From Apostichopus japonicus (Eukaryota; Echinodermata; Holothuroidea; Aspidochirotida; Stichopodidae): DNA of 64,000 nucleotides. The position numbers and the translations under genes are program-made. Shown one piece after another: positions 11,595 to 62,698 of this stretch. The notes beneath the pieces were generated by a model. The model saw only the letters and a program-made list of their open reading frames with translations. It was not told where the DNA came from and did no database searches. The stretch spans positions 27,388,984 through 27,452,983 of the forward strand of contig NC_092564.1 of NCBI RefSeq assembly GCF_037975245.1. Reading direction: 5' to 3'. Position 1 is the stretch's first letter, and each line of letters opens with the position of its first letter.

Positions 11595-14500
11595 GGTGAC
11601 GACGCAGTCTTTGCTTACGCTTCCTCAAAATATCCAGACAGTAAAACTAATGGTGGAGAAAAATACTAGAGGCACCTGTCACAGAAAGGAGAAGAAGAAG
11701 AAGAAAAAGTGTAGATTTGGTTTTTGAATGAGTTAGAATGAAAACTTTTAAGCACTTTTTGTAACAGGCCTCAAATGCAACACTACAGTAAGAACTGTAG
11801 AGAATTTTTTTTTCCGTTCAGTCTAGGTTTAAGTAGCATATATCATCATACTGTGCTACAGTCAAAGTTTCTAGAACTTCCTTCAGCGACTAAGTATCAG
11901 ACAGTCTTCTTTTTTTATAAATTGTGTCAAACACAATAGAGGACATTGTACATTGATATTAAGTCTGACATGAGTTTACTATTCTCAAAACCTTTCTTCT
12001 TGGAATGGGTCCAACCTGCTGCTAAAAACCCTAACTGTAACCTTCAGTTACAGGCTCCTCCCATTTAATAATTGTCATGTACTTCAGACATAACACATAT
12101 ATGCTTAACCAGCACCTTTTCCATGTTTTCATGTTTTTTATCTTTCAGACAAGCATATGCTACACTGTAACTGTCACTGATCTATGTACAGTAGGTACTG
12201 TACATATATACAAGCTGACTTCACTCAAACCTCAACTATGCAAAACATCAGCATCAAAGTAGAGGTGAAATTCCTACAGATTACTATATTACTACAGTAC
12301 AGTACAGTATGAAAACAAACATGTTCTGTTATGCTCAGCATACAGTGATTTATGGCAATATGGTTCATACTGTCTGTCAACATATACAGCACATCACACA
12401 AATGCAAAACCTATGTTTGACTGACTGAATGGTGGAAACCAATCAAATATGGACATATATGTATTTATGCAGCATACTGTACCATTTTGTTCAACATGAA
12501 ATGTTGGTAGCCTATGGCAGGTACAGTAGTGTAGCAGTGTAAGTCAAGGTGGAGTAAACATGCTAGAATGAATATACAGTATACTGTACATGGTACATGT
12601 ATATATCTATATAAATTTACATTATTTAACTTAATGTTGTAAATGTGTTTCATGTTAAGTAAGGGCATATAACTTCTATTGATAGTGTAAATGTTAAAGT
12701 ATGCACAAACAACGCGTCGAAATTTAACCCTAGTAGTAAGTCACAAATGCAAAAAATATCATTACTTAGTAGTACCGTAGCCTCTGTAGACCTCTTGGTG
12801 TGTCAATTCCTGACCAATGAGGTAAGCACTAGCGCCCACTGTTTCCAACCATGGGTGGGAAAGGTGACTGCCATTGAATCACCACAACCAGCAATAACCA
12901 CATATTGTATTGCTTTACTTTTCATCATTCTGTGAACTGTGTGTCAATAACATGACCTGAGCCTCAGGCCAAAAACCTGAAATCAGTTTTGTGTATAGGC
13001 CTTTTGTCACTCTTTCCACATTCCAATGGTAACTGAAAGATGAAAATGCACACACAGGAGACCTGTGTAAAAATACTGAACAAAAAATTATCTTTTTTCA
13101 GTGTCAATTCCAAACAATAGCAAAGAAGCATTATTATCAAAGGAGAGTCTAGAGGGTCTTGCAGAATTTTTTTCTGAATCCACCTAGAAATTACAGCACA
13201 CAAAACAAACATGGTTATTTAGGAATATTATAAGCATTACCATAACTACAGTATGTTCAACCAGGGAACACTCTTTGCAGTTAAATTACACAAAATATTT
13301 TGAAGGGTGATGGCTTCTACTGTAGTACCAATATACTCTAATTCAAACAAATGGTGAACTGTGGGGATTGTAAAACTGTACACTCCTGACCTACAATACT
13401 AGTACATAGTACCATACTGTGTATATCAAACTGTAAACTTAGCTAGCGTATCAACTAAACTATGCAAAGTATTTACCGACTCCATGTTTTCTTTAGTCTA
13501 CCCGACTACAGATTAAACTTCTTTGTCAAACTACAGAATGGATGTAAAATAAACAAGCAAGGCCCAACCCATTTGTAAATACAATTACTGGATCAATCCC
13601 AACCACAAACCAATCATTCAGAGTGGTCTGTGTTAACTGTGTACATATCTTAATTTCAAGTCCAATGCTTGTAATTTCAGTTTTACTAGTTTGTACATAT
13701 GCAACAATTCAACACATAAAATTTGTCGGTCACAAAATTTTGCAGCATGTGATAAAGCCGACCAACAGATTAATTGAAATCACCAAATCACACCCACCCT
13801 AGAGCAACCAAATGAATCTCTTTGAATTTTACAGTATTTAGATTCCTTCCCCTTCTCTAAAATAACAACTTCAATTCAATTATGTGGACATGAATGTTAC
13901 GTGTCCTGGTCAGAATCAGGCACAGTTGTACACCAAATGCAGGTTTTAAGTGTGCAAAACATTGCTGTACGCTGCATTGCGGAGTATATATACATCATAT
14001 TGCATACACTTAATGACCTGAACAACAGTAAACCAACTAAAACCATATAACCTACTGTACTGTAGGAGACTTACTGTACACTGTATACAGGGGTTGTATA
14101 AACTATTGTCCTACTGTAGCCTTTGAACTATTTGTCCAATGTATGATTGGAAATTAAATGACACAATCAAACTCTCATGCCCCACGAGTCTAACAGTGTT
14201 TTGACGAACTATAACATCTAATTAATAAAGCCATTCAACTAATCACCGACGAATAAAACAAAGCACAAACACCTGGGAGTAACAGAAAATTAAAGAACTT
14301 CTCCCTTTATCCATACAATATCAGATATTTGGAGGGAATATATGTCTATTCAAACTCCCTACATCCGTTAAAACTCCATGAATAACTCTACACAACTTAC
14401 TTGCAATATGAGCTATGATGTACAAATAAGGCAACTGTCCTGTGGTGTGACTACGGGAGTCGGAATGAGAATCGATGACACAAGACTAATTTAAGAGTAG

Positions 14501-16746: not shown

Positions 16747-16848
16747 ATCTATATTGTAATGAACAACATTGACAACTTGCCAACAAACAATCGATTCCTA
16801 TGGTATAGTATATATGTACCTCAACAAGTAATATCATATGGCAAACTT
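16747..16848. repeat. Inverted partial copy of the 208-bp unit (left palindrome arm)
   Basis: This stretch is the reverse complement of the first ~100 bp of the adjacent tandem unit. It meets it with no spacer at the CTTAAG centred on 16848/16849, giving a palindrome of roughly 190 bp. A few mismatches and a short deletion at the outer end separate the arms. Confidence 0.9.
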
Positions 16849-17889
16849 AAGTTTGCCATATGATATTACTTGTTGAGGTACTTATATACTATATGGTAGG
16901 AACCGATAGTTTGTTGGCAAGTTGTCATTGTTCATTACAATAGCTACAATATAGGACGAGGGATAAGATAAAGGGGGTGTGGGGGTGGGGTGGGGGGGAC
17001 TGATGCTATACTTTCTCTCTGAGATTACTGTTATACCTCTGGGGATGTTATGAGTTAAGTTTGCCATATGATATTACTTGTTGAGGTACTTATATACTAT
17101 ATGGTAGGAACCGATAGTTTGTTGGCAAGTTGTCATTGTTCATTACAATAGCTACAATATAGGACGAGGGATAAGATAAAGGGGGTGTGGGGGTGGGGTG
17201 GGGGGGACTGATGCTATACTTTCTCTCTGAGATTACTGTTATACCTCTGGGGATGTTATGAGTTAAGTTTGCCATATGATATTACTTGTTGAGGTACTTA
17301 TATACTATATGATAGGAACCGATAGTTTGTTGGCAAGTTGTCATTGTTCATTACAATAGCTACAATATAGGACGAGGGATAAGATAAAGGGGGTGTGGGG
17401 GTGGGGTGGGGGGGACTGATGCTATACTTTCTCTCTGAGATTACTGTTATACCTCTGGGGATGTTATGAGTTAAGTTTGCCATATGATATTACTTGTTGA
17501 GGTACTTATATACTATATGGTAGGAACCGATAGTTTGTTGGCAAGTTGTCATTGTTCATTACAATAGCTACAATATAGGACGAGGGATAAGATAAAGGGG
17601 GTGTGGGGGTGGGGTGGGGGGGGACTGATGCTATACTTTCTCTCTGAGATTACTGTTATACCTCTGGGGATGTTATGAGTTAAGTTTGCCATATGATATT
17701 ACTTGTTGAGGTACTTATATACTATATGGTAGGAACCGATAGTTTGTTGGCAAGTTGTCATTGTTCATTACAATAGCTACAATATAGGACGAGGGATAAG
17801 ATAAAGGGGGTGTGGGGGTGGGGTGGGTAAGGGACTGATGCTATACTTTCTCTCTGAGATTACTGTTATACCTCTGGGGATGTTATGAG
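16847..17889 (+). repeat. Tandem array, five copies of a 208-210 bp unit
   Basis: Units start at TTAAGTTTGCCATATGATAT: 16847, 17055, 17263, 17471 and 17680. Each contains ACTTGTTGAGGTACTTATAT, GTTTGTTGGCAAGTTGTCAT, a GAGGGATAAGATAAAGGGGG box, a G-rich GTGTGGGGGTGGGGTGGGGG run, then CTCTGAGATTACTGTTATAC. Copies differ at only a few bases, mostly in the G run, so the array is young or homogenised. The 61-codon minus-strand frames repeated in it are a by-product of the unit. Confidence 0.97.
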
Positions 17890-17892
17890 TTA

Positions 17893-17920
17893 AACCCCCC
17901 CCCCTTTATCTTATCCCTCT
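17893..17920 (-). repeat. Inverted fragment of the 208-bp unit at the right edge
   Basis: Reads as a C run followed by CTTTATCTTATCCCTC, the reverse complement of the unit's GAGGGATAAGATAAAG plus G run. The array therefore ends, as it begins, against an inverted piece of itself. Confidence 0.8.
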
Positions 17921-28228: not shown

Positions 28229-41220
<12,992 letters not shown>

Positions 41221-46121: not shown

Positions 46122-46290
46122 CTATGATTGGTGTGCAGGGTTTCTGAACTTTGGCAGAAAGAGGCCGAATTTAGTCTCTACTCCGGCGAACGTTGCAACG
46201 GCCAGTCTCAGTCCCCCGATGTGATCAGGATTAATTGGTGGCAGGTCCGCAGGATGTGTCGGCAGAACAACTTCAGACCCCTCTGGACGT
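46122..46290 (-). CDS. SLC25A12/13: Carrier exon 16 (C-terminal tail, stop)
   Basis: Residues 604-659 and [78 protein letters not shown] is the conserved amphipathic tail. Acceptor ctttag|ACG at 46290. The same acceptor plus 21 exon bases is repeated three more times upstream. Confidence 0.95.
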
Positions 46291-49200
46291 CTAAAGTAAA
46301 GACAAATAAAAGAAACAAAGTCACTTCAGACCCCTCTGGACATCTAAGGTATAGACATGAAAAAACAAATTCACTTCAGACCCCTCTGGACGTCTAAAGT
46401 AAAGACAAATGAAAGAAGTAAAGTAACTTCAGACCCCTCTGGACGTCTAAAGTATAGACAAATTAAAGAAACAAAGTAACTAACTAAAGTAAAATAAAAA
46501 CAAAGTGTAGATATCATTTATATCATAATTTAGTGTTCCAATTTTGTGTAGTAGTTTTGAAGGCTCTGATTTTTGTTTCTTATATAAAACATAAGGTTTC
46601 TGTGGTAAAAAAATTTCTTTGCACTTATATAGCAATTTGCTCAATTCTGCATTGCATTTTGCAATGCGACACTGGATAAATTATTCCCTGGCGACACATT
46701 TATACATCATTGTAATGTCCTTAGGTCTGGTCAGTTAAGGTGAATCAGCTGGTTAACACTGATCCAAGTATTAAAAGGCCTAGGAATTGTAATGGCCAAT
46801 GCACTTGGACTGATCATTATATACCAGTAGTAAATACTGATAAAGCAAGTCTGTAACAAACCATTTGAATGTTTAAGCATTGTGCAGTTCAGATAAAGTT
46901 CAATAAGCTCGAACAATTAAGAATGTATTATAATTGCCAAAAGTTAACAAAACATCAGAGCAGAATACCTTACACCTGATATCACACACTTGACAAATAC
47001 AAACAAACAAACCATGCTACAAACATGTTAAGAAGTATAGTAGCTTCTTTGCAAAGAATGATAGAACTATATCAGAGGAAGACAAGAATTGTTATGTACA
47101 CCTTTGAGCTGGTACACAAGAGGTTAACACTAAACGATTGAGGAGGAATGAATGTATTAGAGATTGTGACTTACTTTCCTCCGAAATCAACGTAGAGAAA
47201 TCTTTGTAGTAGTTCATAGGTGAAGAGAGTAACACCAAACTGTGGGGAGGACCGGAATATACGAGCTGAAAGAGAGAGAGCAATAATAAATATGAGACTG
47301 TAACGAATAATGTCATAGGAAGACAAAAATACAAGCAATCAAGAGAAAGAAGATTTAAATTGCGATTGAACTCCTGAATTAATGACATTTCCAGTCACCT
47401 TCTAAAGGGAAATTAAGTTTAAACCAAGGCATTCATATACTTTCTTACTAGAACAAATTAATTTGTCTGAGTTATGATTTGTTTTTGTTTTGTACTATAA
47501 CCAATTACAATGACCATTTGTAAAGGCTTCAACACTTCTTGGCAGCTTTCTTACTGTCCCAGCGTTTCCAAATCTGCCCACAAAGCATTGCACAAGAAGA
47601 GACCATTTTAGGTCACAAATTTCTCACTCACCTGGGCCACCTTTCCAAAATGCCCTAAAACCTTCCTGTTGCAGAATTTTCCTTGCACAATCAAAGACTC
47701 CAGAGTAGGTAGTCTGGCCAGCTCTAGCCACGACTTGTAGCCTTGTTTTGATAACATCCGCAGGAGTGGTGAAGTATGCAGCTGGTGCACCTATGACAAG
47801 AACGAAATCATTAACAGTTAAAACCCAGATGCAGAGAAAAAAGCAAGATGAGGGAAAATCCCTGACATACTGTGATATATTTAGTATTAGCAATACCAAT
47901 TGGTTCATATTAGCTATGTTGAATATAAACATTGTTATATTAGTATATAATACAAGTCAGACATTCATCTTACTTGAAATAATCTCATCTTGATCTAAGC
48001 TGCCGTGGAGCAAACCAAGTCAAGTACTAAGCAGTCTGCCCAATTTGGCAAAAATCATTTCAGATGTTTTAATAGACATACTTCAGCACTTATATTTTGG
48101 CATATCAATATTTTCTCTATGATGTGGTAGTTATTCGGGTCTCATCTTTGTTCTTGTGACAGAGAAAACCTGGATCGATCATACCACAGATGCACCACCC
48201 TCTTTGTATATGTCAAATTGTTAGGGGTTGGGATTCTTCATAAATGTCAAATTCTACGTAAATAGCCCATTACCAAATCAATAAGGAGACACTCTGGTCA
48301 GGTGTTACTTTATATTACCTGGCATTTTCAACTACAGCAGTTGGACAAATCAGACAACAACACCAAAATAAAATCTTCAATCATTCTCCTGAGTTTATGA
48401 GCACTACTGCCATAGACAAAAACATCTTCATATTAGCAGTGACGATGCACTTAGTAATGATATCGTATATCACTCATAAATGACCTTTGAACTTTCTAAT
48501 TCCTGGGCGATCCAGCTCAAGAAAGCACTTGTGAAAATTCGCTAACAGCATGTTGATTATATCAGTCACCTTTAATACCGATTGTAATGCTACATATCAT
48601 GCTGTTGATTCCCTTAGAGAGATTCCAACCATGAAAGCTAACATAAACTTTGACCTGTAACTGAGGAACTTGAGGATAAGATCCTCTTGAATTTTGCTCT
48701 TTACCTGCAATAGTACCAGCAACCAATAGTGATGTTGGAGAATTATGGCCGTCTTCATCAGCAAACTTTGATTTCAAGTGAGCATACGCTGGGAAGTAAA
48801 TACCAGAAAAGGGGATATCTCTCAGGAAGCAGGCACGAGCACCCTGCAAACATGAAAGTGAATTGTAGGGATAATTAATGAGTTAATACATATTCATGAA
48901 ATCATAATCTCTTGGGTGTAAATTCCGGTCAGATTAAAGGATCCAAAGTAATGAAAACTTACAGAAGAACACCAGAAATAGATGACAGATAAGCTACTGC
49001 TAGAGCTTCTCGTTCTCCTCCCCCTCTCGTTCTCCTCCCCCCTCGTTCTTCTCGCCCACTCGTCCTCTCGCCCACTCGTACTCTCGCCCACTCCTAGCCA
49101 TTTCTCAAATGCAAGTTGCATTTTAAGGGTCCTTCCCTCATCACCCTCCTTTAACCCAATTTTGTCCTCTCTTGCATATCCATGTTCATTTAGACCCATC

Positions 49201-52200
49201 TGTCATTTTCTTTCCACTTAGTAAGAACAAATTTTACACCTTTGTAACTCTGAAACTACAATCTCCTCCACCCCTCTCCCCTCCCCCCCCCACCCGCCCA
49301 CACACACACAAGGTATCATTTATGAAGGAAGACGCTCACTTGAAGTAGGGCTTTACTTACCTTGTAAAGACCGAAGAAGCCTAAATCTCTCATGACTGAG
49401 ATGGCACTGACCCTCGGTCCTGTCTGAATCTCACCAGCAACCTGTAACCTAATCTTGACAATCTCTAAGGGATTAGTGAAGACGACTTGAGAGGCACCGG
49501 CCTGGAGAAGAAAGAAGATATCAAGATGCTGGTTATGGTATGAAATTGAGAGGCATGAGGCTTATGAAACAGAACCTTATTAACAACATTACTGCTTTAG
49601 TTGTGGATGTAGACTGTCTTACTATATTCATTGCTCTAGAAATTAGGGCCTCCACATTTCGCTATACAAGCAGGTTTAAAATGTCCAAAATTCAAACTTG
49701 GTCGCAAGTTTGTGATCCATATTTTGTTGTTTTGTTGTTATCTTTTCTCTACCCTATCTTGAGAATGTTATGTGAGCAGTACAATTCCAAAATATGTGGG
49801 AAGACTCTAATGAGAATGGACCACACATCATTAAAAACAATCCTTTGGTAGGAATCACAGTTTACATCTACACATTTCAATGAAGAAAACTGGCAATACC
49901 ACCTGTCACTGACGTGTACAGTAGATTTCTTCCCAAGCAGCATTAGAGTCTCAACTCTCAAGCACCATTTAATACAAGTGTTCGTTATGAATGTTATGTA
50001 AATTAACTGTCGTAACAATTCTGTATTTCTATATCAAAGAGACATAAATCTCCAGGTAGAATATTTATCCATATGTTTACTTTCTTTGATGTTAATACTT
50101 GAACCACTCTGGGGTCAAAGGGTCGACGATTGAAGCCAAGAAGAAAGTATATCACTTACACAAGAACCTGCCAGAATTTCCCCTGCGAGCACTATTGAGC
50201 CATCTGTTGTGCGGAGCCTGTCCCGAATAAAATCATTCATTGTCAGCTTGATGGCTTTCTCTGGGGCTACCCCAATTATCTGAGGAGGCAATCCTTTAAA
50301 ATTGGAAACCAAAACAAAATCATATATTCAGAATTATGAATTCATGTGTATACAATAGTAATTACTGTACCCAATATCAACCCTTACTATTCAATTAAAT
50401 TTATCCACCATGTACAGCTTTGTATGACCCTGACAACAAACAAACGTCCATTTGCAATTTGTTTTTATTAATCATAGGCACAAATATGTAGTACAGCATA
50501 ATGTGTTAGGCTACATTATGAAATGCAGCCATATATGTATATATTTAATGTAGGACCATCGATGTCTTACAACTGCTTACGTTCCATATAGCCTTACATA
50601 TATATCACATGTGTTAAACTGTATTCAAAGCAGCTTGTTGCATTTGCAGTAGTATTTCTCTTGCTGTCAAATACGGTAGTACAAAAAAACTATTCTGTTA
50701 GTTTCTTGTATCAATAATGCAAAATATTTGAAAATTTCTGTTGCTCTTCAAACAGTAGCTTTGCCCTACCACACATTCCTAGGAAAGATCCCTAGCCTAA
50801 CCTTCTACAAGGAAGAACCAGTGCTATAATTGCCAATTATTTGTCAACACTGACCAACAGCTAACTACTCTTGCAATCTCTTTGACAGAGAGAAAAATCT
50901 CATTAACTTCACATGAAATCATACTTGCTCAAGTGACTGGAGTAAAACTGATAAAAAATGGAATTGGTTATGAAAAAGACAAACAGCTACTTTACAAATA
51001 GCCTTGGTTCAGATATCACCATGAAATGACCTCAGAGCAACCATTACATCCGTCTTTTCTGTGTAGAACGTGGATTTGTAAAGTCAAGCATTTTTTAGGC
51101 ACATTCCATGATTATGTGTTCTTGTTTTAGCCAAAATGTTACACACTCTACAATAAGACATAAATCATTTTGACATAAAATAAAACTGTTAGCAAACTTC
51201 GTATCCACTAGAGAGCCTGTGTAGGAGAATGTGTAAAAGTAAGTTGGCCTGACGTTTTGATCCTAGCAGGATCTTCTTCAAAGGCTAAATGATTTTTATA
51301 TTTTTATTTAGCCTTTGAAGAAGATCCTGCTAGGATCGAAACGTCAGGCCAACTTACTTTTACACATAAATCATTTTGCTAAGCTTAGAACATGAATAAT
51401 TCCCATATAGTAAATGTATTAGGCTATTATTCCGCATTAATGTTATCAAACTGGGAGGAAAGGCAGCAGAACTGTTCCAATTATAGAGGTCTATTTTCTC
51501 TTTTCTGGATTAACACGTGATGGTGCCTTACCCCTGTAAAGGCCGAGAAGGCCTTCATGCCTGATCACTTTAGCGAAACAATCAAAGCTGTTTTCATACA
51601 TGAGTTCACCAATAAACCTGCCGCCCCTCTGGTTCTGGATTCTGGTTTTGACCAGATCGATTGGATAAACTGCAGTAGCACCACATGCTGAGAAAAGAAA
51701 ACGAAAATTGCAAAATGGAAATGTAAGTAAACAATGAACAATGGCAAAGTGGGAGGATTATAAACCAGAATTTTTTTTTGCCAGAAAGGGATTTCAAACC
51801 AAGTGGTGATTACTCTTTCAATTTCTAAAAAAAGACAAAACTAACACAACAACAGCAACGACAAAAAAAAAGACCATCAATATGATTCAAACTGAACTAC
51901 AAAACAGATTACTCTTTTCAAGTTCCAAAAATATAAGATGTAACCATGCATCATGATAGCTGCTTAGAGTACCCTTCACTTACCACCAGCAATAGAACCT
52001 AGAGTAAATCTGTAAGCTGTTTCTAAAGTCTGTACCATAGCTGTCCTGTCAACCTTAGCTGCCGGTTGCTGAACCTGTAAACTAGCGATTAAATCTCCCT
52101 TGGGGGCGATGCTCTCAATGTCTTCGTGTGCGAGGCGACTGTAAGGCAAACGAAAAAGCATCTATAGAGTTGAAAAAGTCAAAAACGATGGATATGGTCC

Positions 52201-55200
52201 CAAACATTTCAGGGTTTGTTTAATAGAAAGTTGTGGATACAGTACAATTCTTCCAGCTACATATAAATTTGCTTTTTTTTCTGGAAATGAATGAAAGTAC
52301 CTCAACATTTCTTTTAATATTCACAAAAAACAAAGAAAAAAACTTCTCCCTTAGGTTAACGTAAAAAATAAATGAGTAGACACTGTACAACATTGCAATA
52401 CTATATGGTTTATTGGACACAACCATATTTAAAAAGGCCTGTCAAGAACAAAAGTAAGAATCTAGTTCTAGAAATATGTGACAACAGAAAGGAATCTAGT
52501 GTCGTCAATATGTGTTCTCCATACCCAATGCTGTTTAATAGGCTGTTTGGTTAGCACAGTGAAAGCAATCATTTCAGTTCATGCAATTTATTTATTTATT
52601 TTGGACATATCAGAAGAACTGAAAATGTTCAGGTCAAAGTTTTTCTTTGTTTTGCCCAATTCCCCAAAAGTAACTGGAAATGAATTACAAACAACCATCT
52701 TGTCCTGTCACAAATAATATACCTTTACTACAAAAGGACAATATCTAGGACACTTCTATGATTACCTTTAAATTTCTAATAAATTCAACTGTTAAAACCC
52801 TACTGACTCCTCCAACTAGGGCACGGTGGCAATCTCCATGCCAGAATTGAACAAACCTAACCAGTTACATGGTTAACTACATTTTTTGTTTCCAAATTTC
52901 TTGATCAACTTGGTTGGCATATTTGGAAAATTTTCATGATATCCTATTGCCTGAAAATTTCTTTCTAAAACCATTTATGATATCTGCATGACTTTTAATG
53001 ACTACTAAATTTGACTAAATATCGATGCAGTGTACGCAATGACCTTCCCTGACACTTGCTGAGGACACTACACAAGGAACCCCGGGAGTTGCAGTTGCAG
53101 CTTGTTCAAGATATTCTCTGCATATTTAATTGGAAGCAAACCCATCGGCAGCAAATACAGAGGTCATATAAAGCTCAGACACCACCCCTGTTCACTCACC
53201 CTGTAGATTTACCCTGGCAACAAAGGTGGAACAATATGTTGACTTCTAAAGGTGTAATTTGACTGTATTCCTGAGCAGCATGCAGGAACTCCTCTGAAAA
53301 CATGAAAACAAAACACTGACATCTGTCATAAAAGTCATCAGTATTTGTAAAGTACTTTCATAGTGGTTTTGAATTGACAAATTAATTTCGGATATCGACA
53401 GGTTTTTTAATTCAGACAATTCAACAGCTCAACGAGGGAAAAACTGCTTTGAGGGTGGCAGTGACCACGATTGACCATTCTTAGACTTTTTAGCAAATTT
53501 TGAGTCAATACCGTTGAACTATAAGAATGAAAATGTCACCCCAATATTCAATACAGTTGATATCTCATTATTTGCAAAGGAAATTTGATATTTTGGGGTG
53601 CACATCATATGTTGTCATATTTCCCAAACAACAATGGTATCCAAACTCTAGTTTTAGCATGAGCTTCATCAAACTGGATGTCTATGTTTAATATCACATG
53701 CCGTTTACTGAATCTGAAAATCTTCAAGTTTACTTTATACTATGTAAGGACATAGTATATATTACTTCTAGCTCCTCACCCCTCCCCCACCCCCACCCAA
53801 AAAAAAAATTGCTGTTGTCATTTTGTGCTTTCTACCACCTCTGCTTCTCAATTAAATTTGTTATACTGCCCTATCCATAGTACTATGATGTACATAAACG
53901 TAAAGCACAGCCCACTGATGTAGATTTGGACAAAATGAGGTGAATGAATATGTAGTATGGCAAAAGGTCAAAGTGCAAACTTTTCAAAGTGCATTATCTG
54001 TAAACATGACTTCTTATCAACTGATCAAGATTAAAATTCAGTAGCAACTTGAATTTCCATGAAATTACTGATAACAGTAAGATCAGAACTTACATTCAAA
54101 CTAATTCGTGCTCAAAGGGAGAGATTTTGGGTAGCTTCGTAATTAACTGTTATGCCCTCTTATATAAATATATATAAATGTAAAATATTTTGTGGGCAAA
54201 ATTTTGACTCAAGACGATATGTCAAATAGGTGTAATACGAACGACTTTACACATTGGTTTGTTTCCTACATAGGTATACGAGTAGAAGCCATCAAAGTAA
54301 TAAGGTGATACAACTTGCATAACGGCTCGTACCAATAAAGAACTATGCCATTAAATTAATAACAACTTAAACGTGTTTGTTTTTTAGTACCAAGTCCGTA
54401 ACAATCTTATGATTCATTAGACCAGTCAAACTTACTGGGAATTTACATTAGCCATTGACGTACACAGGCAGTTCATTATGAATCAAACTTCTTTGTGTCT
54501 GCACGTTAGAAACGATTATTCATTAACTGTTCTGTTGGACTTTCTAGATTTGTTGAAACTTTTTGGACAGGACATCCAAATGATGTTCAAAAACCAAACT
54601 TGCCAGTTTCTATTACCATGACAACATTTGATTCCATATTAATTTATCCTTACCTTTTGTGACCGAGACTCTATGGTCTCCCTTGGTGATCGATGAGTAG
54701 ATCCTTCTGATAACTTCCATGTTATTAAGCAGAGAGTTAAAAGCATTAAAGTATGGAAAACTGACCAGATGTTTAGTTTCACCTCCAGCCACCTGTCGAG
54801 AGCAACACAATAAATAGAAAACTGACCAAGTGTTTAGTTTTATTCTCTTCAGCCACTTGTAAACAGGAATGTTATGTCAAGGAACCCCTCTTTCAAGGAA
54901 TCAATTTTTTTTTTTTTTTCTGAATTTCCAAAAGAGAAAGAAAGATTTTATACTAGTAACATACCATTGCAAGGAACAAATGATTTCTAGAGGCTGTCTT
55001 GGAAAAATATAACATAGGTTTGACAAAAATTTATTCCAACAAGGATGCTCATTAACAGAGGATATTTAAAGGAATAACAAAGGCATTATTCCTGTAATAT
55101 CCACAAAATTCAGCAGGTGCTTTGATTGTCAAGTGCAGATACAATAACAGTGCATTGTAACATATGATGTCTGCATAACTGGAAAGATGACATTCAGAAA

Positions 55201-58200
55201 GTTGTAAAGAATATTTGCTGTATAGAAAATATCAGCAAGTAAAACAACTGCTAAATTCAGCTTTAAATATGAGCTTCATAAAGTAAACACATCAAAATGT
55301 TTAAAATGTGTAATGATGACAAATTGATTAAAACTTGATGGCTACTATTATTTTAGAAAAGTTGTGCGGACAAAATAATCATGGGAAATAATATGCAATA
55401 GCTTACATATCATAATAGGATCATCACCCAAAATATACACACCACAATTAAGTCACAACAGAAAGAATAGCCAACACAACAACCAAAGAAACCCAATACA
55501 AAGTAAGTATTAAAAGAGTACATTGATCTTACAATAAACACACATGACATAGTCTTTGTAAACACCAAGCATAGTGTCTTTACAATAAAACATCCAAGCC
55601 ATACTTTCATAAACGCTAATATTGAGACAAAAACATGAACTGGATTTACCTTTTTTCTCTGTAAAAACTTGTGTTTTCACTACAAAATTCATTTGCCCAA
55701 CTTTTCTTAAGACTGCATGAAGATGGCAAAATTAAATTACAAAATTATATCCCTACCTTTACAAATAATCTGTGATGTCCCAATAAAATACAAAAACACT
55801 ATATACAAGGATAATGCTGTAACAGTAAATTAAAATCACTGTATTTTTATAGACAGAGCCTAGTGTTGTTACAGCAGTGAAAATCACATAGAATTGCCTA
55901 AACAACTTGTGCTGCCACAGAAACAACAACCATGCCCTACTTTTATAAAGTACCTCAGGACAGTGCCAGTACAGTAACTTGCAGCAACATGCCCCACTTT
56001 ATGAAAAGGGAAGATAGGGTTGGTCACCCTAAATTCCATCATGCCCTACCCGTCTGACATGATCAAATTGAACCACTGGAAACAAAACCAAATAACTGCA
56101 AGTCCCAACAAACTCACCAAATCACCATGGAAACACCGCATGCCACGTCAAACAATTCAAAGGAAGCTTAACTTACATACAGAATGTTCTGAGCCACATA
56201 GTCAGTTATCAGATGGCTGAAGATGGTGAGCATAATGTGTCTGAACTCTAACGCAGTGACTGCGCCTTTACATTTCTCATCCATGTCCATGAATGCCTGC
56301 CGGGCATGTTCTGCAGCTATACCCTGCAGCATTGAGGGAGCCACACGCAATAAAAAGAAAAATAAGAAAATATGACAAATGTCAAATGAAAAAGGATTTT
56401 CATCCTTTTTTATCTTCCTTACCGATACTAAATTATCCTCTACGAAGTCAGTCACCATGTGACCTTTAATAGTGGTCATAATTTTGCGAAAGTCCAGTGC
56501 TGTTATTCTACCGTGATTTGAGCTGTCAAAACGGACAAATGCTTGCCTTGCGTGTTCTTCTTGAACGTTCTGTAGGATGCAGTCAAAAGAAATCTCAGTA
56601 GCAAATGACATTCAATTTCAAGTATTCATTAACATACATGAATGTAAATTAATTGTGATGATATTCAATGTAAATTAATTGTGATGATATTCAACGTTTT
56701 CCTTTCATAAAAGGAATAGTAATAGCTGAAGTAAGTTAACAATCAATATAAACAGTTCATATCAAGAATAAAGTGGTCAATTACCTTCCCAACTGGGATA
56801 AGTCACAAATGTTAGTAAAATTTGAAAGTGAGAAACTATTCTGTGAATTAAGGATCTTTTGTACAACATTTGTAAACATTACTTAATAAACACCCCATTA
56901 ATGATCATTTCAGGCTTCCACTGAAGACAAAAAAAATTGAAAAAATTTGTATCACGATACAAAAAGTAATGAGGGTGTGGATTTTGCCCAAAGATTCAGT
57001 ATATTTTCAGCAATTTTTCTAAGCAGTTAACTTCAGCCACCAGAAAATCCATTCAATAAAGTTTAGAACTTGCAACATTTCAGAAAATTGTTATTTTGGT
57101 TTGTTACACACTTTCGTTCTTTTCATAAAACCTACACATGGTCCCTGCAATCAGCACAGTGTCTCAGCCAAACAGGTTATTGAGTCATTAACAAGTTTCT
57201 GAATGAAGATTGTGGGTGTTGTAGGCTTCTGCTTAACCTGTGTATCTAAACAAATGTTATCAGTTCCTAAACACTCTCGTCAATAATTAACTGTGATCGT
57301 GACAAAGGATGGACAAATAGTGAGAAACAATTGTCAACCATTCCTACAAGATAGCTTCAAACCTGTATGAATAATGATGATATTAGGCATCTAATTCAAC
57401 TTTCTGCATGCGCAACTATATAAAATAAGCATCTTAAATTGATGGCACATATTTTTTTTTATTATTGCACTGAAAGGTAACACAAACCCAACCCAACTAT
57501 TGTTGGTCTAAGTGATAGAGAAAACTGTCGTGAAGAACTTCCACAAACAGTTATAAAGAAAAAACTCTTATTAATTTCAGTATGTTTATCACAGAGTCCA
57601 ATGTAGGAGACTTAACTAAGTCTAAATAGGAAGTCACCGAGCCACATGTGCTTCTGTGTTTTTAAAAGTCCTTCTTTATATTTTGCAAATGATTATTTTC
57701 TATAAGAAAAATGTGTTTTGCAAATGATGAATCAGAAATAGAAAAAAAAAGGTTGCAGATCCTACTGATACTAGGACATCCGAGCTTTATAAAATGACAG
57801 GGCCCCAGACACGACTTGTAAAGTACAATACCCCTTTAAGTCAAGAGCAGCTAAACATCTCTAACACATAGAAATCTTAGACCCTTGATAATGGCATAGC
57901 TTGTAAGCGAGGCTGCAAATGAAACAAAGTTACAACTGTTATCCATATCAATCAACTATTATCCATATATATCAGTAAGGCAGAAGCAGATCAATTGGAC
58001 AAAATGCAGGTATGCACAATGAGAGGATTAAAAAAATTAACTTTGCAAGGGAAATTCCAATTTTTTTTCTCAAAATAGTCCACAAAATGAGTAATTATGG
58101 TGGCATCCTCCTCCTTTTCTTTTAAATTGTGCGATTATTTCAGTTATCTTTTCATGTTCTGCTTGCTTGCACAGAGTTGTATGAAGGACTGAGGTAAGTA

Positions 58201-61200
58201 GTTTCTGCTAACGTTAGTGTACCACCTAGGGATTAGCAATGGAATGTCATTGAAGATATAACCTTGAGCTATCTAAGGTATGTATAGCAGATGCTGGTAT
58301 AGTGAGCCTATGTGTCTACAGCAATACAAGCATTCAAACCAGAGAAATGCTTCTGCATGGCTCTTTACTGGGTATGCATGGATGATTCTGGGTTTATCTG
58401 CCATGGGTTTGCACAGTATTTTATGAACTGAAATCCTGATAGAAACAATCATTGGGACTTCAGGTAGTTGCAACTTACCCCTCCCCTCTACCCTCTCCCA
58501 CAAACAGACAGTACATAATTAATTATTTGTTAATCATTTGATCTGAGCATTTACTGGGATTGAAGAATTTCTTTTGGTGGGACAGGTTCTGGTAGAAACT
58601 TGGTTGAAGAGGGAGTTGTGGGGGTAGAGGGTGGGAGGAGACACTGCACTTTTTATAGTGACTTTTATAGAGAGAAATTGCGTTCACATAAAAACAACTG
58701 GGGGTAGGTCTAAAATGGGTTGGTCCCAACATTACCTGTAAAAATTGTGTAAACTCTTCATAAGATAGTTCCTTCTTCTTGTTTTGCCCAAAGTGAAGAC
58801 GAACAAACCGACAATCGAAGTTGAAAGGGATCTCCTTATGGACTTCTGTAGCACTATATACACCTTTAAACTCATCTGAGGGGCATCAAACAGAGATAAT
58901 CTAATTCACAGATCAGTTTAGTACACAGCATGTGATGATAAGTCACATTTTCATGTAGGTCAATGGCAATCAAGTCTCAAATGATCAGCAAACACAGTAT
59001 ATTGTCAATACAATTACCATATATCTGCCACTCATTTCTCACCAAATGACTCATTTTCATACATTTCTATCTTGTTCAGTGTACCACACAAAAAATGAAA
59101 ACAATTCCTTTTTTTTCAACTTTCTGTAGCAATATCCTAGCAAGCTAAAATTTAGAGGCAATATCTTCATTACAAATCCATGTATATCAAAATTGTAAAT
59201 TATATCCAATTTGGATAAATAGCTATTTTTGACATAATTACTTGGATAACAATTGCGTTATTGGCAAAATGTTTTTGAAGTAATGAATTATGCAGTTAGT
59301 ACTGTACATGTTGTGAAAGGCTTGAGTAATACAAAAATACATACTGTCTCCATTTTGCACAACAATTTGAGGTTTATGTCTATGTGAGCTTTCAAATACC
59401 AACAAATTGTTAGGTTTCTGCACACTTGAGTAGCAATAACACTAATCAGCATAGCATTGTGCTTCAGATACCACATCATCCTTCCTGAGTTACACGATAA
59501 GAATTGTGGTATTTATCAAACAGGAAAACAGAAGGAAGTGAAGGATAGGCTTCTTGCCCTAATTAAGATACATCTGTTGACATTAGTTCACATATCTGAT
59601 CTACTATGTACCTTGGTCCAATTAGACACAGCAATACATCTATTAACATTGAACTAGTAGTGGGAATTTGATGCTTCCAATGCTACAAAGTACAAACTAA
59701 AAGATATTCTTTTGTTTAAGTGTCATTGAGTATCCTCAAATATAAGAGCAAAGTCCATTTCACATCAAAACAACATTGAAAAATAAACAGAGAAAAATCC
59801 TGTGAATGATTTCCAGGCAAATGTAGATATTCATTAAATGCCACAACAGGATTTTATCAAAATTTAATCAAATTGAGCTGTAACTAATAGATGTGTCTTA
59901 TTAACCCCAAACAGACACTTTCTTGGCTACACTATACAGAGACAGGGTGGCAAAAAAGGACATGTTGACCTATTGAAGCACAAACAGGTACATTGCGCTA
60001 AAAATGTAGGCAATGAAAATATTACCAAACGAAATGAAACCCGATCCATTTGTATCAAAGAGCTGGAAAGCCACCATGTGAAGAGCATCCGGCGAACAAA
60101 GCAAGGCTTCAAACGCCTGAAATTCTATGAATGAAATCAGTCTGTAGAGAGAAAAAAAAATTGAGAATTTATTCAGGGATATTGACACAGCCAAATGATG
60201 TCTAAAAGACATTTGTGAGACCAGGATCATGAATACAAATTATGTTGCTACAGCAAGAGCTCCCTGCACTTCTGCAAGTATCATATCTCTCTCAAACAGT
60301 ATACTACTTCACCATGTCTATATCCTCTAAAACAGCATTTCACATTTAACAACTGGCTATAGCCCTTGATGTCATATCCCTCTAAACAGGATTTCACATT
60401 CAACAACATGCTATATCCATACATGTGTCATATCATGAAACAGCATTTCACAACAGCAATCTAGGCTATACCACTGCATGTGTTATCTCCAGGTAACACA
60501 GCACTTCACAGTAAACAGTAAAATGCCATACTCCTAAATGAGTCAACTTAAATCTTTAAATGTTATTGTGTTTGCATTGCTATTAAGCCTGCAGTGTCAT
60601 AGTACTTGATTATGAGACAGTCAAACTGTTACTCAAAGAGTAAACACTTCTGATCATAACATCAACATTAGAAAACATGAAAAGATTCTTTCTTGACCTC
60701 ATGCTAAGAATTCTGTACGTTTGTACAAATAAACAAGTGTGTACAGGTTAGGCTAGTGTTTTCTCTTGCACAAATGTATAAATAGAGTTGTGTCACAATT
60801 CTGTACCCATGTCATACAACATAAAACACAGAATTACTAAAAATGACTCAAATAAAAACACACAATGTAGTTTCCACACAATAGATGGTAGACAAGTCTG
60901 CTTGGTAACTGCCTACTAATCACATCCAGCAATTAGCCATGCAGAAACTCTGCAAGGATGTTAGCATCCCAATTAATATTTTACTATTCTGCAGTGTAGC
61001 ATGCACCATAATTTAGGAAAATAAAAAAGAAGTTAAAACAAATTCATGTCCTCACTTTCATTTAAAAATTTTTTATTCCACTAACCTCAAGATAGCTGTG
61101 AGTAACCAAACTATATTTAACAGCAACTAGTCATTCTGTCTCTACCCTCAACTTAAAAAATCCTCAAACAACAATTGATGGCATGATCCAATCAAAAGCA

Positions 61201-62698
61201 AAACCTCTTAATGCATAGGAGGTGATGACTTATGGGCCAATTCACCTTCTCCTATTAAACCAATCTATGCCCTTTTACCTGATACCCTGTGAGATCACAT
61301 TGCTCCCCTTAAAAGGCAGTGCAAATGGTGTACTTGAATCAAAGTCGACAGGTACAACTTATATTTGAAATGGATGGTGTACTGTACCTCACGATGCCAT
61401 CATACACAAAGGCTGTTATCTATTTTAAAGCCCACATGTTTCAAATATCTTTCTCTTTTTCTCCTCTTCTGGTTAGGTCTTCCTCTTATTGTTTTTTTAT
61501 AAGGCCCCATTGTCCAGCAGTCTATGTGACAACTGTACTGTCTTAGCCAATGGTACAGTAATAGAAACAGACGTTCTAGTGGGAACACAATACATTACAA
61601 AGATTAAATACATCTAGTATCCTATTCACCTGTTTATTGAGATGTACTGTTTGTAATTAGATCTTGTATTCTGTCCACCTACTTCAAATAAGTCTACAGC
61701 AGTTTCCTTTACTGAGATGTACCGTATGTACTTTAAGTAGTGAAGTGTTACTATGACGATTGTGTGTTCCTCTAATAGAGCAGATGTACCGTACCCAAGT
61801 CATGATCTTTCATATAGTAAAGCCTCTACACATTCTCTGTTGAGAAGTATTCAGAGGGTTACTAGGCAGGAATGTCATTTTCACTCTCACTCGGACCACT
61901 TACCCATCTTTCGTCTGATCCACCACTCCAGCCAGGAGCTTCATTGTATCTGCATTGTAATTCCTCTCAGCTTGCATTCCCAGATAACCCCGGATGAAGT
62001 CCTCTGAGGTCATAAACTGCTCCCCTTTCTTCTCAACGCTAGCATTCTGGATTGAAACAAACCGTTCGCTTGTGAAATTCAAAAGAATACTAGTGAACTT
62101 GTATGATAATATACACTCAAATAATAGATTAACACCATATACCTGCCTTATGGACTGCAGAGGTTATGTGAAAGCACCTAAGCTGAATAAGATTCTGTGT
62201 CTCTCTCTCTCACAAGACCACCAACTCAGACCCCTAACCCCGCAGAGACTATGAAAACACCACCACTGTATAGATAGATACTTGGGCATGATCAGTGGCA
62301 CTGTGAATTGTATGAATATGCAATGATTCAGTATGTAAATGTACTCAAATAATGAATATTCAGTTATTCAAAGTGCAAACGTATACATGTCTCTCTAGAC
62401 CTACACACAGCATTGCCTGATAAGTAAATCGGACTCAATTTCCTTTGCGATCTTTGTTTCACTACTTGCAGAACACTGTGGTAAAATACTGAAAATTTTA
62501 CTTTTCAGTGGTTTCTAAAAGGGGTTAGTATTTATTGTGGTTGTCGGCTTAGCGTGTCACTTGCAGTTACTATGATGCTGAAGAGATTAATTGCTTTCCA
62601 TCCCTCACACAACCCTACTCAGAGAAAATGTCATAGCATACCTTTTGAAAGATTTTCCTCAATTCTCCAGCATCCGCTCTTTTAATCAGATGCAGTGC
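46122..62698 (-). CDS. SLC25A12/13: Calcium-regulated mitochondrial aspartate/glutamate carrier (aralar/citrin), exons 2 to last
   Basis: Inner-membrane antiporter that exports aspartate for glutamate plus H+, supporting the malate-aspartate shuttle. Its N-terminal EF-hand domain faces the intermembrane space. Fifteen exons join in frame to 1,980 bp (659 residues plus stop, counting one of two alternative exons 6); vertebrate proteins have about 675. Numbering from exon 2: canonical EF-hand DQTKDGLISFIEF (62-74, ligands D62, T64, D66, E73), degenerate EF-hands to about 280, then three carrier repeats with PIDLVKTR (339-346), PLEIVKIR (438-445), PADVIKTR (530-537), and a tail ending at residue 659. 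The first exon with the ATG was not found; alignment at KRAD and the EF-hand predicts about four codons. Notable: duplicated exon 6, quadruplicated last acceptor. Whether it represents the ancestor of both SLC25A12 and SLC25A13 cannot be decided. Confidence 0.96.
46270..46480 (-). repeat. Fourfold tandem copy of the last exon's 3' splice site
   Basis: On the minus strand each unit contains a T-rich tract, CTTTAG (or CCTTAG) and ACGTCCAGAGGGGTCTGAAG. Exon-start positions are 46446, 46393, 46343 and 46290, spaced 53, 50 and 53 bp. The 46343 copy reads ATGTCC. The unit spans intron and exon sequence, so every copy carries a usable-looking acceptor. Confidence 0.93.
46640..46695 (-). repeat. Dispersed repeat family B, short inverted piece
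   Basis: Contains CATTTTGCAATGCGACACTG, GATAAATTATTCCC, the reverse complement of the left end of the copies at 8868 and 34455 (approximate match). Confidence 0.45.
47175..47265 (-). CDS. SLC25A12/13: Carrier exon 15
   Basis: Residues 574-603 plus two bases: [53 protein letters not shown] is the end of the carrier domain. Acceptor tttcag|CTC, donor AAA|gtaagt. Confidence 0.96.
47632..47790 (-). CDS. SLC25A12/13: Carrier exon 14 (carrier repeat 3)
   Basis: Residues 521-573 plus one base: [53 protein letters not shown]. Third signature PADVIKTR. Acceptor tcatag|GTG, donor CAG|gtgagt. Confidence 0.97.
48705..48843 (-). CDS. SLC25A12/13: Carrier exon 13
   Basis: Residues 475-520 plus one base: [46 protein letters not shown]. 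Follows [18 protein letters not shown]. Acceptor ttgcag|GGT, donor CAG|gtaaag. Confidence 0.97.
49003..49095. repeat. Pyrimidine-rich short tandem repeat
   Basis: Imperfect units of 'tctcgttctcctcccc' passing into three 'ctctcgcccactcgt' units, in the intron between carrier exons 12 and 13. Confidence 0.85.
49361..49501 (-). CDS. SLC25A12/13: Carrier exon 12 (carrier repeat 2)
   Basis: 141 bp, phase 0/0, residues 428-474: [47 protein letters not shown]. Second signature PLEIVKIR. Acceptor ctccag|GCC, donor AAG|gtaagt. Confidence 0.97.
50160..50293 (-). CDS. SLC25A12/13: Carrier exon 11
   Basis: Residues 383-427: [61 protein letters not shown] is diagnostic of the aspartate/glutamate carriers. 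Acceptor tttaaag|GAT, donor TGT|gtaagt. Confidence 0.97.
51183..51365. repeat. Dispersed repeat family C, copy 2, with a 60-bp-arm hairpin
   Basis: Arms 51231-51290 and 51306-51365 pair at 59 of 60 positions around a 15-base AT-rich loop. The arm contains GGCCTGACGTTT, GATCCTAGCAGGATCTTCTT and CAAAGGCTAAAT. The outer flank (51183-51230) and arm match the element at 40612-40915 in opposite orientation. It has the shape of a foldback miniature element. It lies between carrier exons 10 and 11. Confidence 0.9.
51532..51687 (-). CDS. SLC25A12/13: Carrier exon 10 (carrier repeat 1)
   Basis: Residues 331-382 plus one base: [52 protein letters not shown]. First PxDxxKxR motif at 339-346. Acceptor tctcag|CAT, donor GGG|gtaagg. 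Confidence 0.97.
51984..52138 (-). CDS. SLC25A12/13: Carrier exon 9 (linker and start of carrier domain)
   Basis: Residues 279-330 plus one base: [52 protein letters not shown]. Leads from the last EF-hand into transmembrane helix 1; AYRF-LGS-AG is the family signature. Acceptor ttacag|TCG, donor GTG|gtaagt. Confidence 0.95.
53200..53293 (-). CDS. SLC25A12/13: Carrier exon 8
   Basis: Residues 248-278 plus two bases: [31 protein letters not shown]. The end departs from the family's DILFQLADLYEPRG: Asp becomes Asn and ADLYEPR becomes CCQGKST at the same length. Acceptor tttcag|AGG, donor AGG|gtgagt. An internal CAGG|gtaaat could act as an alternative donor but would break the frame. Confidence 0.88.
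54654..54792 (-). CDS. SLC25A12/13: Carrier exon 7
   Basis: Residues 202-247 plus one base: [57 protein letters not shown] is nearly invariant in the family. Phase 0 start fits either exon 6. Acceptor cgacag|GTG, donor AAG|gtaagg. Confidence 0.96.
56177..56323 (-). CDS. SLC25A12/13: Carrier exon 6b (alternative EF-hand 5 exon, duplicate)
   Basis: 147 bp, phase 0/0, 49 residues: [49 protein letters not shown]. Aligns to exon 6a without gaps, 23 of 49 identical, including EHARQAF and TAL-FR-IM. Loop positions 1, 3, 5 and 12 are D, K, K and E, so the lysines would oppose calcium binding. Acceptor gctgcag|GGT, donor TAT|gtaagt. The reading frame is intact and the splice sites are good, so a pseudo-exon is unlikely. 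Confidence 0.9.
56324..56422 (-). other. 99-bp stop-free intron between exons 6a and 6b
   Basis: Begins gtaagg and ends ctgcag. Intron bases 13-34 (plus 56389-56410) form a 9-bp AAAAAGGAT/ATCCTTTTT hairpin closed by a GAAA loop. A possible branch point (TTTGAC) lies about 41 bases from the donor, ahead of a TTTTCTTATTTTTCTTTTT pyrimidine tract. It is 33 codons long with no stop in the exon frame, so retention would also keep the frame. Confidence 0.8.
56423..56569 (-). CDS. SLC25A12/13: Carrier exon 6a (alternative EF-hand 5 exon, ancestral-like)
   Basis: 147 bp, phase 0/0, 49 residues: [49 protein letters not shown]. Closer than exon 6b to the single vertebrate exon (HAKQAFVQRDN, GRVTAIDFRDIMVTI). 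Loop positions 1, 3, 5 and 12 are D, S, H and D. Acceptor cctacag|AAC, donor TCG|gtaagg. Only 99 bp separates it from exon 6b. Confidence 0.94.
56632..56695. repeat. Two-copy direct repeat
   Basis: AATGTAAATTAATTGTGATG then ATATTC occurs twice in a row, about 60 bp upstream (minus-strand sense) of exon 6a. Confidence 0.85.
57606..57660 (+). repeat. Dispersed repeat family A, copy 3
   Basis: GGAGACTTAACTAAGTCTAA, ATAGGAAGTCACCGAGCCAC, ATGTGCTTCTGTG. Diverged from the copies at 3935 and 7338. Located in the intron between carrier exons 5 and 6a. Confidence 0.55.
58736..58875 (-). CDS. SLC25A12/13: Carrier exon 5 (EF-hands 3-4)
   Basis: Residues 106-152: [47 protein letters not shown]. Family pattern IPFNWD-EF-LHFG...EFTQFL. 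Acceptor cctcag|ATG, donor CAG|gtaatg, phase 0, as both versions of exon 6 require. Confidence 0.95.
60026..60141 (-). CDS. SLC25A12/13: Carrier exon 4 (EF-hands 2-3)
   Basis: Residues 67-105 plus one base: [39 protein letters not shown]. Completes the calcium loop with Glu73. Matches [20 protein letters not shown]. Acceptor ctacag|ACT, donor TTG|gtaata. Confidence 0.96.
60285..60560 (+). repeat. Degenerate tandem repeat, about four units near 64 bp
   Basis: Recurring '(a)aacag(c/g)atttcaca(tt)..aacaac..gctata.cc....tgt.atatc' at roughly 60-70-bp intervals, in the intron between carrier exons 3 and 4. Confidence 0.75.
61904..62046 (-). CDS. SLC25A12/13: Carrier exon 3 (EF-hands 1-2)
   Basis: Residues 20-66 plus two bases: [44 protein letters not shown]. 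The last seven residues open the only calcium-binding loop known to be occupied in the family. Acceptor atccag|AAT, donor TGG|gtaagt. Confidence 0.96.
62642..62698 (-). CDS. SLC25A12/13: Carrier exon 2
   Basis: 57 bp, phase 0/0: [19 protein letters not shown]. Corresponds to VALTKRADPAELRTIFLK in human citrin, where the same exon boundaries occur. Acceptor cccaag|GCA, donor AAG|gtatgc. Contains no in-frame ATG, so an upstream coding exon is required. Confidence 0.9.

Follow-up and report, generated by a model that had tools for sequence, protein, structure and literature searches.

Two tandem versions of exon 6 encode alternative forms of EF-hand 5 in an aspartate/glutamate carrier gene of a sea cucumber

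Tandem mutually exclusive exons are a well-known kind of gene arrangement. For alpha-tropomyosin, it was proposed that exons 2 and 3 cannot be joined because the branch point of the downstream exon lies too close to the donor of the upstream one, and this was established by experiment. In OGDH, exons 4a and 4b are mutually exclusive, and exon 4b encodes a site essential for calcium activation (accessible part of PMC9177970); in COQ-2, exons 6a and 6e are mutually exclusive, and the swap, as tested genetically, changes the substrate choice of the enzyme (accessible part of PMC8659336). The human aspartate/glutamate carriers, aralar and citrin, have been characterized structurally. As described in the accessible part of PMC4250520, EF-hands 4-8 of these proteins form a largely static dimer interface, and none of the five binds calcium. 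EF-hand 5 itself has a closed form and participates in dimerization; its entry helix is fused to the exit helix of EF-hand 4.

Here we report on a pair of tandem exons, 6a and 6b, in the aspartate/glutamate carrier gene of the sea cucumber Apostichopus japonicus. Both resulting isoforms are already annotated in NCBI records, and no paper discussing them was found in searches of open-access papers. Nor did we find in these searches, with subscription papers mostly outside the scope, any report of an alternative exon 6 in an aspartate/glutamate carrier; the accessible part of PMC12162812 contains nothing on such an exon.

The DNA analysed (the window) is a 64-kb stretch of the genome, corresponding to bases 27388984-27452983 of contig 4 of the assembly, and the positions of the relevant features in it are given in Table 1. 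Exons 2-16 of the carrier gene, running from 62698 to 46122 on the minus strand, are separated by GT-AG introns and joined into a single open frame of 659 residues plus a stop codon with either 6a or 6b. The model with 6a is identical to NCBI protein P0002, and that with 6b to P0001, letter for letter from residue 22. Exon 1 (the first 21 residues of the NCBI proteins) probably lies outside the window, because no six-residue piece of the first 20 residues is encoded within it. Both isoforms matched EF-hand families and Mito_carr in Pfam, and P0001 aligned to the structure 4p5w including its C-terminal domain. Judged from these matches, the product is an aspartate/glutamate carrier composed of an EF-hand regulatory domain, a mitochondrial carrier domain and a C-terminal helix. 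Its 61-66% identity to vertebrate carriers (two 31-row alignments) suggests transport of aspartate and glutamate under calcium control.

Table 1. Positions of the carrier gene, its exon 6 pair and associated elements in the window
Feature	Position	Strand	Basis
Aspartate/glutamate carrier gene (SLC25A12/13 type), exons 2-16	46122..62698	-	exon-by-exon match and splice-consistent model
Exon 5 (140 nt), common to both annotated isoforms	58736..58875	-	gene model and match to NCBI proteins
Exon 6a (147 nt, phase 0), EF-hand 5 in the form typical of the family, included in isoform X1	56423..56569	-	
Intron between 6a and 6b, 99 nt	56324..56422	-	
Candidate branch point TTTGACA for exon 6b (A at 56382)	56380..56386	-	best of four candidates, simple consensus of our own
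Pyrimidine-rich tract between candidate branch point and exon 6b	56349..56370	-	extent read from sequence
Exon 6b (147 nt, phase 0), EF-hand 5 in a divergent form, included in isoform X2	56177..56323	-	
Exon 7 (139 nt), common to both annotated isoforms	54654..54792	-	gene model and match to NCBI proteins

When exon 6a was compared with the whole assembly (671.6 Mb), only two places matched, exon 6a itself (E 1.5e-26) and exon 6b (8.8e-9). A similar comparison with the whole of isoform X1, in which the best candidates were scored, produced 33 matches, 15 in the carrier gene and 18 elsewhere. The latter (28-59% identity) were confined to the carrier domain and were read as other mitochondrial carriers; the same comparison gave no match to the regulatory domain outside the carrier gene. 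This is the sole gene of the SLC25A12/13 type that we found in the assembly.

Several other features of the window were recorded. A tandem repeat of about 53 bp (4.1 copies, 46269-46481) spans the acceptor and the first bases of carrier exon 16, so that the intron-exon junction itself is repeated (identical 16-nt junctions start at 46403 and 46300); the NCBI isoforms use the last copy. A 208-bp tandem repeat (5.0 copies, 99% match) occupies 16847-17893. On the minus strand, Pfam matches were obtained for the C-terminal domain of an FGGY carbohydrate kinase at 29510-29806 and for the talin F0 domain (FERM_f0) at 11277-11624, the latter representing an N-terminal talin exon. ORFs at 37836-38219 and 39252-39659, also on the minus strand, look like exons of the same FGGY kinase and gave no Pfam match; we take the kinase to be xylulokinase-like.

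As the sequence-only reading had recognized, 6a and 6b are adjacent homologous exons of equal length and phase with intact splice sites. Each is preceded by AG and followed by a GT donor (gtaagg for 6a, gtaagt for 6b), has no stop codon and is in phase 0 at both ends. The two align without gaps, with 23/49 residues and 74/147 nucleotides identical. Among the 15 introns of the gene model, the one separating 6a from 6b is the shortest, the next being 296 nt. This short intron is in frame and stop-free, so its retention would keep the frame, and a 147-codon ORF spans the whole pair.

NCBI isoform X1 (P0002) carries 6a only, and isoform X2 (P0001) carries 6b only. Each has 680 amino acids, and the swapped 49 residues (174-222) are the only difference between them. 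Alternative isoforms in annotation of this sort are normally built from aligned transcripts; the records for X1 and X2 were possibly made on the same assembly as the window. Searching a protein collection with the 6b region yielded 6 candidates and one match, isoform X2, 100% identical over the searched region. Since proteins between about 360 and 1150 residues long were eligible in this search, one with both exons could have appeared; no spliced protein of that kind was found in it.

A search with a 100-residue piece produced a single candidate, P0121, a 155-residue protein from a separate 4150-nt contig. P0121 is an unspliced genomic reading of 6a, the intron and 6b; it agrees with the window throughout the 131 codons that the pair occupies, whereas three codons immediately before these, in intron 5, are different. 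Because of these three codons, the contig is a separate sequence from a different haplotype. The sequence-only reading would have been contradicted by the lack of any 6b product or by a pair confined to this assembly; as far as the records allow, isoform X2 settles the former point in its favour and the P0121 contig the latter. Exon 6b from a further species was not among the matches to the protein collection (X2 for the 6b region, P0121 for the 100-residue piece). This absence is weak evidence, because the search needs shared exact words and the collection was clustered at 90%. It is the one observation in line with 6b being a pseudo-exon or an assembly artefact, an explanation that we regard as scarcely credible in view of the haplotype differences of the contig that holds the pair, the annotated 6b isoform, the intact splice sites and the codon-level constraint described below.

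One exon or the other in each isoform is thus what the annotation contains. How joint inclusion would be avoided is a separate matter. The reading frame does not enforce exclusion: with 6a and 6b included together, the frame of the exon 2-16 model stays open, giving 708 residues. There is also no sign of mixed spliceosome types, the introns being GT-AG with ordinary donors and all sites looking like those of the common spliceosome type. In the 6a-6b intron, the best branch-point candidate has its A at position 41 counted from the 6a donor, which leaves 58 nt to exon 6b. The pyrimidine tract is likewise far from exon 6b (84% C/T at -26 to -50), and 81 nt before the acceptor are without AG; another intron of the gene has 125 such nucleotides. 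With a distance of only 41 nt between the 6a donor and the best candidate, direct joining of 6a to 6b would be sterically disfavoured, and the short 99-nt intron may in this way help mutual exclusion. We put this forward as a proposal only, since two weaker candidates lie farther from this donor, at 60 and 72 nt, and would escape the block.

Alternatively, 6a and 6b could be included together to add a ninth EF-hand-like unit, in which case the pair would be a cassette duplication and not a mutually exclusive pair. Two exons of 147 nt in phase 0 do stay in frame when joined, and a 99-nt intron may be long enough for splicing. Joint inclusion is nevertheless improbable, considering that the NCBI isoforms hold one exon each, that the sole other protein found with both exons, P0121, reads through the unspliced intron, and that the best branch-point candidate is so close to the 6a donor.

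Pairing between introns was considered as another basis of exclusion. For intron 5 with the intron between 6b and 7, and for the 6a-6b intron with the latter, the best ungapped helices were matched by 58 and 57 of 60 shuffles, respectively, and both were rejected. The helix between intron 5 and the 6a-6b intron scored 36, which none of 60 shuffles equalled, and consists mostly of an A-run paired with a T-run. In larger sets, 4 of 300 shuffles of both introns and 7 of 300 shuffles of intron 5 reached this score, and another intron scored 35; we consider this pairing unconvincing. Intron 5 also contains a perfect 26-bp tandem duplication (56641-56692), about 70 nt upstream of exon 6a.

Exons 6a and 6b differ at 73 nucleotides, of which 24, 13 and 36 are at codon positions 1, 2 and 3 (third versus the rest, P = 5e-5). 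The Nei-Gojobori estimates are 0.38 for pN and 0.94 for pS, so that synonymous sites are saturated. A recent duplicate or an allelic artefact was ruled out because of this saturation and because only the 6a and 6b places in the assembly match exon 6a. In simulations of neutral divergence, all 73 differences were left free, or 10, 20 or 25 synonymous ones were assigned to 6a. At 73 differences, 23 identical residues were kept in 0/5000 runs, and in 0/2000 runs at each of these four settings, and neutral drift of 6b was therefore rejected; had the differences numbered only 37 in total, drift would reach 23/49 in 84% of runs. The open frame of 6b is by itself weak evidence, because some 7-11% of sequences carried neutrally to 73 differences also remain without stops.

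For comparison with the family, we used 118 other carriers (the best 120 of 1621 homology matches minus isoforms X1 and X2). Nineteen columns of the exon were defined as conserved, that is, shared by 12 or more of 13 echinoderm and hemichordate-like rows as well as by at least 90% of all 118 carriers. Exon 6a keeps 18 of the 19 and exon 6b keeps 14, against an average of 3.7-5.1 in neutral runs, and four of the five changes in 6b are exchanges among I, L and V. The view that the second copy diverged under selection, which the sequence-only reading had based on its intact frame, was therefore upheld on other grounds: the excess of third-position differences, the conserved columns kept and the failure of neutral runs. 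Together with the branch length given below, these comparisons showed exon 6b to have evolved fast but under protein-level constraint since the duplication.

In a 20-row, 49-column tree, 6b grouped with 6a and carrier P0003 (support 73/79; 88% of 200 bootstrap trees). We took P0003 for the carrier of another sea cucumber; its identity to isoform X1 is 87-88%. The grouping would fit a duplication within the sea cucumber line, although it is drawn from just 49 columns and includes a long branch: that of 6b is at least 1.2 (1.22, or 1.49 as the program lists it), the median end branch being 0.053. By direct count among the 118 other carriers listed, 6b was closest to the exon of the starfish Acanthaster (29/49), and all 118 were closer to 6a than to 6b.

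The rate of 6b raises another explanation, namely that both exons are used and the choice between them is functionally neutral, 6b being a tolerated, slowly decaying duplicate that is retained solely for its compatibility with the fold and used at a low level. Relaxed constraint of this kind would account for the much faster evolution of 6b than of any other copy in the tree and for its 13 residues found in none of the 118 other carriers compared. It agrees poorly with the excess of differences at third codon positions, with the 14 conserved columns kept and the mild nature of four of the five losses, and with the lack of any stop or indel in 6b. We consider functional neutrality unlikely, although of the explanations opposed to a role for 6b it deserves the most weight.

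Loop positions 3, 5 and 12 of EF-hand 5 are S, H and D in 6a and K, K and E in 6b, as the sequence-only reading had stated from the translations. It had gone on to suggest that these differences could change the calcium response, which the analysis did not support. EF-hand 5 of human aralar and citrin is calcium-free in the structures described in the accessible part of PMC4250520. In the EF-hand loop consensus, position 3 must be D/N/S and position 5 must be D/E/N/S/T/G (quoted in the accessible part of PMC9177970); compared with the 12-residue consensus, neither version matches, as 6a fails at position 5 and 6b at positions 3 and 5. Furthermore, other carriers have the same residues: P0014, a carrier grouping with hemichordates, also has K at positions 3 and 5, and those of starfish, brittle star and crinoids have E at position 12. 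On these three counts a calcium switch in the loop was rejected, and despite the differences at positions 3, 5 and 12, an effect of 6b on calcium binding at EF-hand 5 itself is very hard to credit.

A separate observation concerns EF-hand 3, whose loop (residues 117-128 of P0001 and P0002) is encoded by 60056..60026 and 58875..58871 on the minus strand and fits the full calcium consensus. The same was true of 15/15 echinoderm and hemichordate-like rows, both isoforms, P0003 and P0014 included, and of 0/105 other carriers compared, mostly from vertebrates, whose six commonest loops end in N. Carriers of the former group may bind calcium at EF-hand 3 besides EF-hand 2, unlike human carriers.

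The structural setting of exon 6 was examined with the solved relatives found by sequence (4p5x, 4p60 and 4p5w). In the alignment with 4p5w, with citrin numbering based on a chain offset of 22 as read here, the human stretch homologous to exon 6 starts at residue 157, so that exon positions 20 and 37 correspond to Gly176 and His193. A citrin mutation table places Q159X and G176V in exon 6 and ends this exon at c.615 (accessible part of PMC3777997). Gly176 belongs to the interface and leads to disease when mutated, and a water-mediated contact links His193 with Asn652 in the C-terminal helix (accessible part of PMC4250520). The equivalents of both residues are kept in 6a and 6b. Differences are found around them: positions 191-192, beside His193, are KG in 6a and FS in 6b, the fused helix starts with NVQE in 6a and GIAA in 6b, and the exon ends differ too.

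Structures of the two isoforms were predicted from 31-sequence alignments (mean pLDDT 72.8 and 73.3, pTM 0.46 and 0.47). Because these overall values are modest, only local structure was compared. The same elements were predicted over residues 165-223 in both isoforms, with one helix end shifted by one residue, and block pLDDT over residues 171-220 was 81-90 with 6b and 83-91 with 6a. The two versions are thus predicted to fold alike. Because Gly176 and His193 are kept, the flanking residues differ and the local folds are alike, we favour a role of the swap in the geometry of the dimer or in coupling to the C-terminal helix, which is more likely than an effect via the calcium loop. An influence of the exon choice on dimer contacts, also suggested by the sequence-only reading, seems plausible.

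We propose the following explanation. A tandem duplication of ancestral exon 6, which encodes EF-hand 5 of the regulatory domain, would have occurred on the line of descent to this sea cucumber, and 6a and 6b would now be spliced singly into carriers differing in just 49 residues. Calcium binding at EF-hand 5 would not be altered by 6b. Instead, 6b would change the rigid dimer platform of EF-hands 4-8, the helix that is continuous with EF-hand 4, and the neighbours of the conserved histidine (His193 of citrin) that touches the C-terminal gating helix. In consequence, 6b might shift the coupling of calcium at EF-hand 2 to the opening of the carrier, or determine which isoforms pair. Taken as a whole, from tandem duplication through one-at-a-time splicing to a structural effect of 6b that does not involve the calcium loop, this explanation is probably correct, with appreciable room for doubt. 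A more far-reaching and distinctly tentative idea is that one gene, by exchanging EF-hand 5, makes two carrier types with a retuned dimer platform and a retuned docking of the C-terminal gating helix, and that splicing thereby sets the calcium sensitivity of the malate-aspartate shuttle or the dimer partner, perhaps in a tissue-dependent manner or according to a metabolic state such as dormancy.

If so, splicing may tune a key mitochondrial transporter via one regulatory exon, and the natural swap of a single EF-hand offers a ready-made pair of proteins for testing the regulatory contribution of the EF-hand 4-8 platform. The carrier pair resembles 4a/4b of OGDH in that alternative exons serve a mitochondrial metabolic protein, and the OGDH swap affects calcium activation. 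The gene is a different one, however, and exon 4b of OGDH has a calcium-binding motif (accessible part of PMC9177970), whereas neither version of carrier exon 6 fits such a loop, for which reason the effect of the carrier swap would be structural. Exons 6a/6e of COQ-2 are likewise alternative exons of an invertebrate mitochondrial metabolic protein, and there the property switched was identified by genetic tests (accessible part of PMC8659336), whereas the effect in the sea cucumber carrier is inferred. Steric exclusion similarly has an experimental basis in alpha-tropomyosin, whereas the branch point between carrier exons 6a and 6b is predicted. Vertebrate aralar (SLC25A12) and citrin (SLC25A13) share with the sea cucumber carrier the family, the domain order, a homologous exon 6 and the presence of two versions per animal. 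Humans have two carrier genes with tissue-specific use, and the vertebrate carrier proteins compared show a single version of exon 6, whereas the sea cucumber has one gene with two versions of this exon. If the proposed explanation is true, splicing within one gene does in the sea cucumber what gene duplication does in vertebrates.
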